Below are positions 29,961 through 42,152 of a DNA stretch of 43,409 nt, piece after piece (within the stretch, counting starts at the first letter, position 1; the number at the start of each line of letters is the position of its first letter). The stretch is taken from NCBI GenBank assembly GCA_030830695.1, contig JAURML010000043.1, forward strand, positions 1 to 43,409, given 5' to 3'. The notes beneath the pieces were generated by a model that did not search any database, was not told the DNA's origin, and was given only the letters and a program-made list of their open reading frames with translations. Source of the stretch: Caenibius sp. (lineage in GTDB: Bacteria; Pseudomonadota; Alphaproteobacteria; Sphingomonadales; Sphingomonadaceae). A program made the translations under genes and the position numbers.

Positions 29961-30035
29961 TGGTGCCCTCAACGGGAATCGAACCCGTGCTTCAGCCATG
30001 AAAGGGCCGCGCCCTGACTGCCGGACGAAGGGTTC
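29961..30035 (-). tRNA. Degenerate tandem copy of tRNA-Glu (pseudo-tRNA)
   Basis: This 75-base stretch has an intact Glu anticodon arm (loop CTTTCAT, anticodon TTC), an intact T arm and an encoded CCA. It aligns over its whole length with the true tRNA-Glu next to it. The acceptor stem is broken: 5' GAACCCT faces 3' TGAGGGC with about four mismatches, and the D-loop GG is altered. It is probably a decaying duplicate. Confidence 0.7.
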
Positions 30036-30066: not shown

Positions 30067-30141
30067 TGGTGACCCCTACGGGAATCGAACCCGTGTTTCA
30101 GCCGTGAAAGGGCCGCGTCCTAACCGCTAGACGAAGGGGCC
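30067..30141 (-). tRNA. tRNA-Glu (anticodon TTC)
   Basis: This 75-base tRNA reads, on the minus strand, GGCCCCTTCGTCTAGCGG at its 5' end, has anticodon loop CTTTCAC (TTC) and T arm ACGGGTTCGATTCCCGT, and ends AGGGGTC-A-CCA. The acceptor stem pairs with one G-U. It lies between recJ and the degenerate copy. Confidence 0.96.
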
Positions 30142-35340: not shown

Positions 35341-37011
35341 TCAGGCGCTGTTAGCCGCGCTGACGATGGCGCGCACGCTGGCGGTGGCCACATCGGGATC
35401 AATGCCCACACCCCACACAATGCGGCCATCGGGAAGCGCGCATTCGACATAGGCCGCCGCCCGCGCCTCAGTACCGCTGGCAAGGGCATGCTCACTGTAA
35501 TCGAGTACTTCCATTTCAAGCCCGAAGCTGTCCTTCAATGTGGCCAGCACGGATGAAATCAGGCCGCTGCCGCGTCCGCTGACGCGTTGTTCCGTTCCAT
35601 CAACCTCGATCGTGCCGGTAAACAGGCGCGTTCCATCGCTGGCGCGCGTCTCATCGTAATCGACCAGCCGGAAACGGCGGTTGGGGGTTTGCATGTGATA
35701 GGCGCTGCGGAACACTTCCCAGATATCGGCGGCATTCAGTTCGCGGCTGACTTCGTCAGCCTTTTGCTGCACATATCGCGAGAAGTGCGCCTGCATGCGC
35801 TTGGGTAGTTTCAGACCCTGATCCTGCTCAAGGACCCACGCGAAGCCGCCCTTGCCGCTTTGCGAGTTGACGCGGATCACCGCTTCGTAATTGCGGCCGA
35901 GGTCAGCCGGATCGATCGGCAGATAGGGCACACGCCACAGTTCGTCATTTTGCTGATCATGCGCGGCAAAGCCTTTCTTGATCGCATCCTGATGGCTGCC
36001 GGAAAAGGCGGTGAAGACCAGTTCGCCGCCATAGGGGTGGCGTTGGTGCACCGGGATCTGGTTGCAATATTCGACTGTCTCGATCACCTTGTCGATGTCC
36101 GAGAAATTCAGTCCCGGATCAACCCCTTGCGTGTACATGTTGAGCGCAACTGTCACCAGGCAGCAATTGCCCGTGCGTTCACCATTGCCGAACAGGCAGC
36201 CTTCGACGCGGTCTGCGCCAGCCATCATGCCCAGTTCTGCCGCGGCCACGCCAGTTCCGCGATCGTTGTGCGTGTGGAGCGAAATCACCACGCTGTCCCG
36301 GTTGGGAATGTTGCGATGGAAATATTCAATCTGGTCAGCATAGATGTTCGGCGTTGCCGCTTCCACCGTTGCAGGCAGATTGAAGATGATTGGATGTTCG
36401 GGCGTCGGTTGCAGCACTTCCATCACCGCTTCGCAGCATTCCAGGCTGAAATCGAGTTCGGCGGTGGAGAAGGTTTCCGGGCTGTACTGGAAATGCCAGT
36501 CGGCGCCGGGGCGCTTCGCCGCCTCGTCGCGCAGCACTTTCGCGCCCAGAACCGCAATCTGCCTCACCTCGTCGCGGCTCATGTTGAACACGATCTGGCG
36601 CCAGGCGGGCGAAACGGCGTTGTAGAGGTGGACAATGGCCGCGCGTACGCCGTCCAGGCTTTCGAAGCTGGTGCGGATCAGATCCTCGCGCGATTGAGTG
36701 AGCACCTGAACGATTACGTCGTCGGGAATCCGCCCCGACCGGACCAGGCCCTGGATGAAATCGAAGTCCGTCGCACCGGCCGCAGGGAAACCGACCTCGA
36801 TCTCTTTCAGCCCGACCTCCACCAGCGTGTCGAAGAATCGATTCTTCTTCACCGCATCCATCGGATCGATGATTGACTGGTTGCCATCGCGCAGATCGGT
36901 TGAAAGCCAGCGCGGCGGGGCGCTGATGACGCGGTTCGGCCACTGCCGGTCAGGCAGTTCGATCTGGGGGAAGGGCCGGTATTTTCGGCCTGGTTCTTTC
37001 AACATGGACAT
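35341..37011 (-). CDS. leuA: 2-isopropylmalate synthase
   Basis: This 556-residue protein is the first committed enzyme of leucine synthesis and condenses acetyl-CoA with 2-oxoisovalerate. It is of the long (about 550-570) fungal/actinobacterial-like type, with a divalent-metal DRE-TIM barrel: WLSTDLRDGNQSIIDPMD (catalytic RDGNQ), VVISLHTHNDRGTGVAAAEL and GCLFGNGERTGNCCLVTVAL. The C-terminal regulatory domain ends DPDVATASVRAIVSAANSA. The frame extends to 37047 by a TTG, but ATG 37011 (MSMLKEPGRK) has AAGG nine bases upstream; ATG 37005 is also possible. A leucine-rich leader peptide and hairpins precede it. Confidence 0.95.
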   Translation of the reverse strand: MSMLKEPGRKYRPFPQIELPDRQWPNRVISAPPRWLSTDLRDGNQSIIDPMDAVKKNRFFDTLVEVGLKEIEVGFPAAGATDFDFIQGLVRSGRIPDDVIVQVLTQSREDLIRTSFESLDGVRAAIVHLYNAVSPAWRQIVFNMSRDEVRQIAVLGAKVLRDEAAKRPGADWHFQYSPETFSTAELDFSLECCEAVMEVLQPTPEHPIIFNLPATVEAATPNIYADQIEYFHRNIPNRDSVVISLHTHNDRGTGVAAAELGMMAGADRVEGCLFGNGERTGNCCLVTVALNMYTQGVDPGLNFSDIDKVIETVEYCNQIPVHQRHPYGGELVFTAFSGSHQDAIKKGFAAHDQQNDELWRVPYLPIDPADLGRNYEAVIRVNSQSGKGGFAWVLEQDQGLKLPKRMQAHFSRYVQQKADEVSRELNAADIWEVFRSAYHMQTPNRRFRLVDYDETRASDGTRLFTGTIEVDGTEQRVSGRGSGLISSVLATLKDSFGLEMEVLDYSEHALASGTEARAAAYVECALPDGRIVWGVGIDPDVATASVRAIVSAANSA

Positions 37012-37034
37012 GGGATTTTGCCTTATCGCCTGTT

Positions 37035-37137
37035 GCGCGCACGGCAAGGGGTGCGCGCCATTTCCGACTGTCAGATTTCAAGAAGCCCTTAGGCGGGCGC
37101 CGTGCACCGGGCACGGCAGGGGGACACGCCTAAGGGC
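37035..37137 (-). promoter_or_regulatory. Leucine attenuator region upstream of leuA
   Basis: On the minus strand, GCCCTTAGGCG (37137-37127), which includes the leader stop TAG, pairs perfectly with CGCCTAAGGGC (37095-37085), followed by TTCTT. Inside this loop is a second hairpin, GCCGTGC (37117-37111)/GCACGGC (37105-37099). Downstream is a third, GCGCGCAC (37058-37051)/GTGCGCGC (37042-37035). The GCCGTGC sequence recurs at the third hairpin (37045-37039) and could pair with the GCACGGC arm instead. These exclusive pairings, after a Leu-rich leader, are the layout of ribosome-mediated attenuation. Confidence 0.7.
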
Positions 37138-37177
37138 GTGTAAGTCGAAGCAGCGAAAGGAGCGTGCGGTTCGTCAT
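37130..37177 (-). CDS. leuL: leu operon leader peptide (15 residues)
   Basis: The frame reads MTNRTLLSLLRLTRP and then TAG, with five leucines among 15 residues, two of them as adjacent pairs (CTC CTT and CTG CTT). An in-frame ATG at 37189 would add MLAV. GGCGGT lies just before the shorter start. It ends 118 bases before leuA and its stop codon is inside the first attenuator stem. Ribosome stalling at the Leu codons when leucyl-tRNA is scarce would change which hairpin forms. Length, Leu content and hairpins together make it convincing. Confidence 0.75.
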   Translation of the reverse strand: MTNRTLLSLLRLTRP

Positions 37178-37253
37178 TACCGCCAGCATATGGGGGTTTG
37201 GTAAAGATTTGTCCACCCGCATCGGGGTTGATGCATTTTTCGGGCGAGGGTCC

Positions 37254-39702: not shown

Positions 39703-41445
39703 TTAAACGAGAGCCTTGGCTTCATCTTCCATGGTGCCGGCGACCTGATCGCCATACAGCAACATTTCGGTATGCGCCGCCCCGCTGGGGATCATCGGGA
39801 AGCAGTTGGCCTCCTTCGACACCAGGCAATCGACGATCACCGGCCCGTCATGGTCGATCATCGCCTGAATGCCTGCATCCAGCTCGCTCTCGTTGTGAAT
39901 GCGAATACCCTTCCAGCCATAGGCTTCGCCCAGTTTCACGAAATCGGGCAGGCTATCGGAATAGGAATTGGAATAGCGGCTTTCATAGGTCAGTTCCTGC
40001 CACTGGCGGACCATTCCCATATATTCATTGTTGAGAATGAAGATCTTCACCGGCAGCCGATACTGGCTGGCCGTGCCCAGTTCCTGGATATTCATCTGGA
40101 TCGAGGCTTCGCCCGCAATGTCGATCACCAGCCTGCCGGGGTGGCCAAGCTGCCCGCCGATGGCGGCGGGCAGGCCATAGCCCATGGTGCCCAGCCCGCC
40201 TGAGGTCAGCCAGCGGTTGGGGCCGAAGAAATGGAAATATTGGGCGGCCCACATCTGGTGCTGGCCGACTTCCGTGCTGATGATCGGATCGCGATCCCGG
40301 GTCAGCGCGAACAGCCGTTCCACCGCCAGTTGCGGCATCAGTTCCGTGTCGCTTTTGGGATAGGCCAGGCTTTCGCGCGCGCGCCACCCGTCGATCCGCG
40401 CCTTCCATTCCGTCAGATCATTGGGCTTGCGATTCCCCCATGCCGTAATCAGCTGCTCCAGCACCTGTGCGCAATCGCCGATGATCGGCAGGTCCACTGG
40501 CACCGTCTTATTGATGGATGAACGGTCAATATCAATGTGGATCTTCTTCGAATGCGGCGCGAATGCATCAAGGCGACCTGTCACCCGGTCATCGAACCGT
40601 GCGCCCACGCAGATGATGAGGTCCGCGCGATTCATCGCCATGTTGGATTCATAGGTGCCGTGCATCCCCAGCATGCCGAGCCAGTCGGCATGATCGGCGG
40701 GGAAGGCGCCAAGGCCCATCAGGGTCGAGGTGACGGGCGCGTCGATCATCGTCTGGAACTGGCGCAGCAGTTCAGTCGCGCGCGGACCGGCGTTGATGAT
40801 CCCGCCGCCGGTATAGAGGATCGGGGCCTCGGCCTGCTCGATCATCGCGATCGCCTGCGCGATCTCGCCGTCGCCGCCCAGCGTGCGCGGGGCATAGCGC
40901 AGCGGGCGCTGTACGGGCGCATCGCTCATCGCGGCGGTGGCGACCTGCACATTCTTCGGAATGTCGATCAGCACCGGGCCGGGGCGGCCAGTCGTGGCGA
41001 TCTCGAATGCTTCCTCAATGGTCGCGGCTAGGTCGGCCGGGTCTTTCACCAGGTAATTATGCTTGGTGCAGTGGCGAGTAATGCCGATAGTGTCAGCTTC
41101 CTGGAAAGCGTCGGAGCCGATTAGATTGGTTGCCACCTGCCCGGTGATGACGACCATCGGGATTGAATCCATGAAGGCGTCCGTGATGCCCGTAACCGCG
41201 TTGGTTGCGCCGGGGCCGGAGGTGACCAGCACCACGCCCGGCTTGCCGGTGGCACGGGCATAGCCTTCGGCGGCATGTGCAGCGGCCTGTTCGTGGCGCA
41301 CCAGTATATGCCGGATCCGCTCGTCAGCGAAGATTTCGTCATAGATCGGCAGCACGGCGCCGCCGGGATAGCCGAAGACGAACTCCACGCCCTGGCGAAC
41401 CAGGCTTTCGATCAGGATGCTTGCGCCGCTGCGCTCTTCACTCAC
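39703..41445 (-). CDS. ilvB: Acetolactate synthase large (catalytic) subunit
   Basis: This 580-residue ThDP enzyme makes acetolactate for valine/leucine and acetohydroxybutyrate for isoleucine. It shows the N-terminal [20 protein letters not shown], the catalytic Glu in [20 protein letters not shown], the FAD-region segment [13 protein letters not shown] and a ThDP-binding segment [20 protein letters not shown], where the usual GDGSF is [18 protein letters not shown] follows. GTG at 41445 has AAGGAA six bases upstream; the frame extends to 41607 but without support. A terminator-like hairpin lies in the 158-base leader. The enzyme feeds leuA and panB substrates. Confidence 0.95.
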
Positions 41446-41512
41446 GTCATTTTCCTTGTTTGCGCCTCGACGCGGGCTGCGCCGAATGCGGAGAAACCGA
41501 GGTTGGGCGGAC

Positions 41513-41548
41513 AAAAATCGAGCCGGCGCAGGGACTGCGTCGGGCCGG
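41513..41548 (-). promoter_or_regulatory. Terminator-like hairpin in the ilvB leader (possible attenuator)
   Basis: On the minus strand, CCGG and CGCAG (41548-41536) pair with CTGCGCCGG (41531-41523) around a TCC loop with a four-base internal bulge. CTCGATTTTT follows, ending in a five-T run. It lies 68 bases before the ilvB GTG. A TTGACA sits just after the miaA stop. No Ile/Val/Leu-rich leader peptide with a normal start is apparent, so the mechanism is open. Confidence 0.45.
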
Positions 41549-41603
41549 TTAAGCTCGCTGTGTTCGCAATCGCGGTAAGAGACAGGATATGACCTGTCAA
41601 CCC

Positions 41604-42152
41604 TCAAAACTGTAATAATATTTCAAAGTAAGTCATGGAATCGCAATTTAAAGCATTCGTGCGTGGCCAGGCATCGTCCGATTGCCTGCGAAACCACGTA
41701 TATTGCCGTTTCGCGTAATTTCGTGTCGCCTGCGCGCCGCGCGCCAGTACCTCATCGCGGGTCAGTTCCCCGCGAATCAGCGCGGAAATCTCGCTCACCC
41801 CGATGGCACGCATGACCGGCAGATCGGGGTCGAGCCTGCGCGCCAGCAATGCTTCCACTTCTGCCACCGCGCCATGGTCCAGCATCGCCGCAAAGCGCCG
41901 GTCGCACCGCTCATAAAGCCATGGCCTGTCCGGCAGCAGGATCAGGGGATGAAGCTGGATCAGATCAGCGATCCCGCCGACACGTTGCAGTTGCCAATCG
42001 CTCAGCGGCCGCCCGGTGGAACGGATGACTTCCAGTGCCCGCGCCACCCGGGTGCTGTCCTGCGGGTTCAGCCGGGCAGCGCGCGCCGGATCTTCCTGCG
42101 CCAGCGCGCGATGTGCCTGATCAACAGGCAACGCGCGGACGGCTGCGCGGAT
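41604..42152 (-). pseudogene. miaA: miaA 3' part, downstream of an in-frame stop
   Basis: This stretch continues miaA in the same frame after the TAA at 42153-42155. It encodes [40 protein letters not shown], the [20 protein letters not shown] segment and the C-terminal tRNA-binding [17 protein letters not shown]. Apart from the stop it looks undamaged, so the interruption is recent or artificial. TTG at 42131 (LPVDQ) is the first possible restart. The 3' end is unusually AT-rich and may contain the ilvB promoter. Confidence 0.85.

Follow-up and report, generated by a model that had tools for sequence, protein, structure and literature searches.

The leuA gene for 2-isopropylmalate synthase in the window, that is, the whole 43,409-nucleotide stretch of Caenibius sp. 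DNA analysed here, is preceded by a short reading frame rich in leucine codons that ends inside a strong RNA stem. The original prediction took this region for a leuA leader peptide and attenuator in which the stem is a terminator. The locus raises the question of how such a leader might act on leuA, whether by stopping transcription at the stem or in some other way.

Architecture of the leuA leader

The leader lies on the minus strand, which the original prediction had left unstated, and its features are collected in Table 1. The predicted 15-residue leader was confirmed upstream of leuA, with its five Leu codons arranged as CTC CTT .. CTG CTT .. CTT and with TAG (37132-37130) as the stop codon. 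As had been described, this ORF ends in the first arm of a stem, here called P3 (stem B), which is perfect over 11 bp in the window and is followed by TTCTT (37084-37080); the motif GCCGTGC, said to occur twice, was located at 37117-37111 and 37045-37039. The 189-nt leader folds more stably than its dinucleotide shuffles (z -3.1), and, if the transcript in the window is leaderless as predicted, its minimum free energy (MFE) structure consists of P1, P2 and P3. The mutually exclusive folds that had been proposed are supported as well, stem A and P3 being alternatives to each other. Within the sub-clade of the window, named TAG below, the stem A pair m+8:m+21 is GC in 15, AU in 8, GU in 2 and mismatched in 1 of the 26 sequences; stem A is not conserved class-wide, and its covariation is seen only within this sub-clade. 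Stem A sets the leader stop codon at its tetraloop and junction and may add a further switching state in the TAG sub-clade.

The predicted leader promoter of the window was not picked up by a scan with a strict sigma-70 consensus. Among the Erythrobacteraceae, the -35-like box starts 35-37 nt upstream of the leader ATG in nearly all sequences, and the WA set (see below) keeps an A at -12 and a C at -1 in this promoter region. Since the promoter position is locked to the leader ATG, at a spacing that predicts a leaderless mRNA, the leader ORF in Erythrobacteraceae is probably read from a leaderless transcript with its 5' end at or near the ATG. A documented leaderless, dual-function RNA is the trp leader of S. 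meliloti, rnTrpL (PMC10117765).

Table 1. Coordinates of the leuA leader, its predicted promoter and its RNA stems in the window.
Feature	Position	Strand	Remarks and basis
Intergenic setting of leader	between YceI-like gene (37970-37254) and leuA (ATG 37011)	(-)	
-35-like box TGGACA of predicted leader promoter	37210..37215	(-)	sequence and relatives
-10-like box CATATG	37187..37192	(-)	17 nt from -35; ends 9 nt before leader ATG
Leader ORF	37130..37177	(-)	MTNRTLLSLLRLTRP and stop, 15 residues; sequence and relatives
P1 5' strand CCTTTCGCTG (Leu-Ser-Leu codons)	37151..37160	(-)	complementary to leuA SD region; MFE and own-versus-permuted tests in relatives
P2 5' strand TTCGACT (core CGACTTA)	37143..37149	(-)	MFE; class-wide complementarity
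Stem A ACACGCC-CTTA-GGCGTGT	37124..37141	(-)	excludes P3; lineage-specific
P3 (stem B) 5' arm GCCCTTAGGCG, holds leader stop codon	37127..37137	(-)	covariation
P3 inner hairpin GCCGTGC-CCGGT-GCACGGC	37099..37117	(-)	MFE; variable among relatives
P3 3' arm CGCCTAAGGGC	37085..37095	(-)	covariation
P2 3' strand AGTCGGAA	37062..37069	(-)	MFE; supported in TAG sub-clade (p=0.0024)
Hairpin GCGCGCAC-CCCTTGCC-GTGCGCGC, between P2 and SD	37035..37058	(-)	MFE; sub-clade feature, similar hairpins in TAG-class relatives
P1 3' strand CAGGCGATAAGG, contains leuA SD AAGG	37021..37032	(-)	sequence, fold, duplex tests in relatives
leuA Shine-Dalgarno (SD) AAGG	37024-37021	(-)	sequence
leuA, 2-isopropylmalate synthase, TIGR00970 type	35341..37011	(-)	NCBIfam PRK03739.1 861 bits, TIGR00970 809 bits; ATG at 37011

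Conservation of the leader and of the stop-codon stem

The conservation in relatives on which the original prediction had been staked was found. A leuA protein scan yielded 80 loci, nearly all from Erythrobacteraceae or sphingomonads by title, and the leader and stem were present in 80/80 (L011 is partly masked as N there), which, together with the stem covariation, lies far above chance. Erythrobacter sp. NAP1 (L033) is among the carriers. The relatives fall into two sub-classes: TAG (25 relatives plus the window), ending in RLTRP with the stop codon in the stem, and WA (n=55), ending in RLxRPWA, in which the TAG stop has turned into TGG. This A-to-G substitution in the stop codon is offset by a T-to-C change in the P3 3' arm (CCTAAGGG versus CCCAAGGG), and in three Croceicoccus sequences the pairing is preserved as CCCCCGG:CCGGGGG at the price of a Trp-to-Arg change. 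Elsewhere in the order, families with a different leuA type, one that scores under the TIGR00970 cut-off, carry the same element upstream of the gene; the element is thus order-wide and precedes two types of leuA.

A covariance model built from 45 sequences (R1) has 97% of its cells paired, a percentage reached by 0/500 shuffles, and shows covariation of P3 as double changes at 6/10 pairs; in a second model (R2), 96% of cells are paired and double changes occur at 7/10 pairs. R1 matched in 59/240 genomes of the class, 57/59 of the matches, the window counted, lying directly upstream of leuA. R2 matched in at least 125/387 Alphaproteobacteria genomes sampled at >=90% completeness, nearly always once per genome, and 86/88 new loci have leuA downstream. 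These genome counts are lower bounds, since only a few candidates were scored in each genome. In a sample of the phylum, 38 matches fell inside the Alphaproteobacteria and one weak match outside, the latter not at leuA. The two R2 matches without leuA downstream, L302 (in G552, outside the class) and L307 (in G393), have low scores and are probably due to chance.

The element has an invariant core, (CGA/CTN)-CTT-Ann-NGC-CCY-TRR, encoding RLxxP-stop or LLxxP-stop. Across 213 members, a C at position m, CT at m+3/4, T/A at m+5, A at m+6 and G at m+10 are near-invariant, and the 3' end of the core reads CC, a pyrimidine-rich pair and then a stop codon or TGG. The Arg codon CGA is swapped for a Leu codon in about one quarter of members, giving CTYCTTA, which is itself an anti-SD sequence. 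A search of Rfam 15 returned no family match, the Leu leader included, in the window or in 12 loci of the class, and a mir-2820 match in that search was rejected as chance. Our literature search found no description of the element, although an earlier prediction in some alphaproteobacteria may exist. We are nearly certain that the leuA leader element is real, unannotated and conserved across Alphaproteobacteria.

Two variations on the core were observed. CTYCTTA is found in several families of the class (L245, L258, L286, L288 and other hold-out loci), where it is complementary to an SD of the form TAAGGAG; at these loci the core has apparently taken over from P1 as the partner of the SD. In L256, L272, L287-L289, L291, L292 and L298, the leaders end in LLSRL-stop or LLSSL-stop, with the Pro gone and the stop-codon stem retained.

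The stem as a proposed terminator

The strong stem with its TTCTT in the window suggests classic intrinsic-terminator attenuation, in which the 11-bp stem and the following tract would stop transcription, as the original prediction held. However, five or more U within 8 nt after the stem occur in just 6/213 members, and the 10 nt past the P3 3' arm contain 12-32% U (mean per set). TTCTT is neither conserved nor a U-tract, and a pattern scan of the minus strand in the window found no U-tract terminator. Classic termination at P3 is thus largely refuted, and we consider it very unlikely. The idea of a leuA leader and attenuator survives in its Leu-codon leader and its folds and fails in its terminator, the data favouring control of leuA translation through the SD region. 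The departure from the geometry of the textbook enteric leu attenuator, which had also been claimed, is upheld by the stop codon lying inside a conserved stem.

Apparent translation of the leader

Every close relative (80/80) has an in-frame ATG that opens a reading frame, and the other frames have few. Among distant genomes it is present in 36/49 and 63/84, against 7/6 and 16/6, respectively, in the other two frames, and about one quarter of these genomes have no in-frame leader ATG. As their final leader Leu codon, 212/213 members use CTT or CTA, while these two make up only ~7-15% of the Leu codons of leuA itself, which are mostly CTG and CTC. From its sequence, the Leu-rich leader ORF appears to be translated.

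Predicted pairing between the leader and the leuA SD region

P1 and P2 were first spotted by eye and tested afterwards. In the P1 test, the Leu-codon region was paired with the 28 nt before leuA, using own or permuted partners. Own duplexes were more stable both in the WA set (-12.9 versus -10.3 kcal/mol, 0/5000) and in the class (-15.7 versus -13.7 kcal/mol, 0/5000). In the P2 test, the leader segment CGACTTAnnnG was paired with the spacer after the stem and before the leuA SD, and the first class set gave -8.9 for own versus -7.3 kcal/mol for permuted partners (0/2000). In a hold-out of 84 genomes that were unused in forming the P1/P2 idea, both pairings lay below every permutation, but a control of the leader against leuA coding sequence was also significant (p=0.0012). 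This pointed to a base-composition confound, so dinucleotide-shuffled targets were used. With these, P1 (p=4.7e-4) and P2 (p=5.2e-5) held in the hold-out and both controls were null (p=0.41 and 0.50); the first class set agreed for P1 and P2, again with null controls.

The two sub-classes of the Erythrobacteraceae differ in these tests. With shuffled targets, P1 is strongly supported in WA (p=1.7e-8) and P2 is unsupported (p=0.31). In TAG, the sub-clade of the window, P2 is supported (p=0.0024) and P1 is weak, with permutation values of p=0.006 for a narrow and 0.09 for a wide test window and 0.2 on shuffling. The first P2 test had been nearly flat in this family. In the Erythrobacteraceae sets, where the sequences are related, one control, the upstream region against the SD, likewise reached significance (p=0.003 and 0.04). 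In general, the P1/P2 effects are modest, 1.4-2.6 kcal/mol, and absent from some genomes. A pairing of the WA-type GTTACGAG with CTACGAC was dropped; GTTACGAG pairs with the CGTAACG codons further upstream.

Exposure of the leuA SD was modelled by folding constrained by a ribosome footprint. In the model, the SD is little exposed when no ribosome is present; exposure rises when the ribosome is on the Leu codons, where the curve has its maximum (m-15 to m-3), and falls again towards the stop. The rise on the Leu codons was significant in four sets (p=5e-7, 4e-4, 0.016 and 0.009). For the window, with leuA coding sequence included, modelled exposure goes from 0.62 to 0.63 on the Leu codons and is 0.50 at the stop; this leaves the modelled exposure ambiguous for the window, and the mechanism is argued from the family and not from the single sequence.

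Proposed mechanism and alternative explanations

Sequence comparison and fold modelling together point to a leucine-responsive translational attenuator of leuA, a reading to which we assign a probability of about 0.6. When charged tRNA-Leu is plentiful, ribosomes would reach the stop codon and leave the leader, after which P1 and P2 would close and the leuA SD would be hidden. Under a shortage of Leu-tRNA, a ribosome would wait on the Leu codons and cover the P1 and P2 5' strands, leaving P3 intact and freeing the SD, and LeuA would be made. P3 would hold the remainder of the leader folded and bring P1 together fast after termination. SD release alone leaves the role of P3 and the conserved Pro-stop unaccounted for; the latter may simply come with P3, or may act as a second signal.

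The main rival holds that the stems gate the loading of Rho between P3 and leuA, transcription being stopped when leucine is plentiful. It fits a Leu-codon leader peptide with mutually exclusive stems and no intrinsic terminator, the P3-leuA stretches of some clades are C-rich and G-poor by eye, and Rho-dependent attenuation has been proposed for other leaders that have no terminator (PMC1262725). However, gating of Rho predicts neither the complementarity of the leader to the leuA SD region nor the maximum of SD exposure with a ribosome at the Leu codons, and we judge it unlikely. A two-input arrangement also seems rather unlikely to us: here the Leu codons would act as the anti-Shine-Dalgarno of leuA, and Arg/Leu-Leu-x-x-Pro-stop would be a second sensor, through slow termination or nascent-chain arrest in the stem, all in a leaderless uORF of a class-wide family that Rfam 15 does not name and that would have arisen independently of the actinobacterial LEU element described below.

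The Pro-then-stop, which the WA sub-clade lacks and almost every other member has, and the strong conservation of R/L-L-x-x-P would also agree with a peptide sensor, whereby leuA translation is set by a ribosome stalled in the stem, either by its nascent RLxxP chain or because termination at Pro-stop is slow. Yet the CTT, NGC, CCY and stop bases are also explained by P2/P3 pairing, and residues shift while pairing stays, as in the Trp-to-Arg change of L032, L035 and L046 and the stop-to-Trp change of WA; a sensor of this kind is improbable. That the leader RNA works mainly as an sRNA like rnTrpL, or determines RNA stability rather than SD access, has a precedent in the leaderless dual-function trp leader of S. 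meliloti (PMC10117765), but the leader is located directly before leuA and is complementary to its SD in cis, which makes a role in trans highly improbable.

If translational attenuation by the leader is correct, leuA in much of the Alphaproteobacteria is controlled at translation, not transcription, by a leader that the ribosome reads, and the RNA element responsible is missing from Rfam. It would also account for the persistence of the rare Leu codons CTT and CTA in leuA leaders, and would add another likely leaderless uORF in a class with a known leaderless trp leader. The question of terminator-less leuA leaders, which dates from the actinobacterial LEU element, would become testable by simple reporter fusions. 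The element supplies a short, searchable signature.

Comparison with known systems

Translational attenuation of the ermC/cat type relies on a ribosome that stalls in the leader and so releases the sequestered SD of the next gene. SD release is proposed alike for the leuA leader; however, the signal here would be amino acid supply and not an antibiotic. The enteric leu attenuator (leuL; Rfam Leu leader) shares the Leu-codon leader peptide, the alternative stems and, on the proposed reading, the use of ribosome position as signal, whereas the present element has no intrinsic terminator, carries its stop codon within a conserved stem, has the SD as its likely target and gives no Rfam match. The S. 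meliloti trpL/rnTrpL (PMC10117765, PMC7298713) is likewise an alphaproteobacterial amino acid leader peptide, read from a leaderless RNA as is probable for the leuA leader in Erythrobacteraceae, but it is a Trp-specific transcription attenuator with another sequence and gene.

Among published designs, the actinobacterial LEU element comes closest: it has a leader with a Leu run, its Leu codons form a base stem with the leuA SD, and it lacks a terminator (Seliverstov et al. 2005, PMC1262725). A pseudoknot has been proposed for it, and Leu-codon mutants deviated from classical attenuation (PMC1262725). The alphaproteobacterial element similarly has a Leu-run leader peptide before leuA and lacks a terminator, and a base stem of its Leu codons with the leuA SD box is supported for the class, more weakly in the sub-clade of the window. 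In contrast to the LEU element, it has a stop-codon stem with a CGACTTA/GCCCCTGA core, and its matches are alphaproteobacterial, the relatives of the window being Erythrobacteraceae and not Actinobacteria. We regard this as a likeness of design and claim neither membership nor homology.

Other observations in the window

Upstream of ilvB (41442-41770, minus strand), no Leu/Ile/Val leader ORF of the leuA-leader kind was seen in the window. The genes leuA, ilvC, ilvN and ilvB lie close together. In addition, two tRNA-Glu (TTC) genes stand in tandem at 29961-30032 and 30067-30141 (minus strand); one of them, barely over the Rfam threshold, is possibly a copy in decay.
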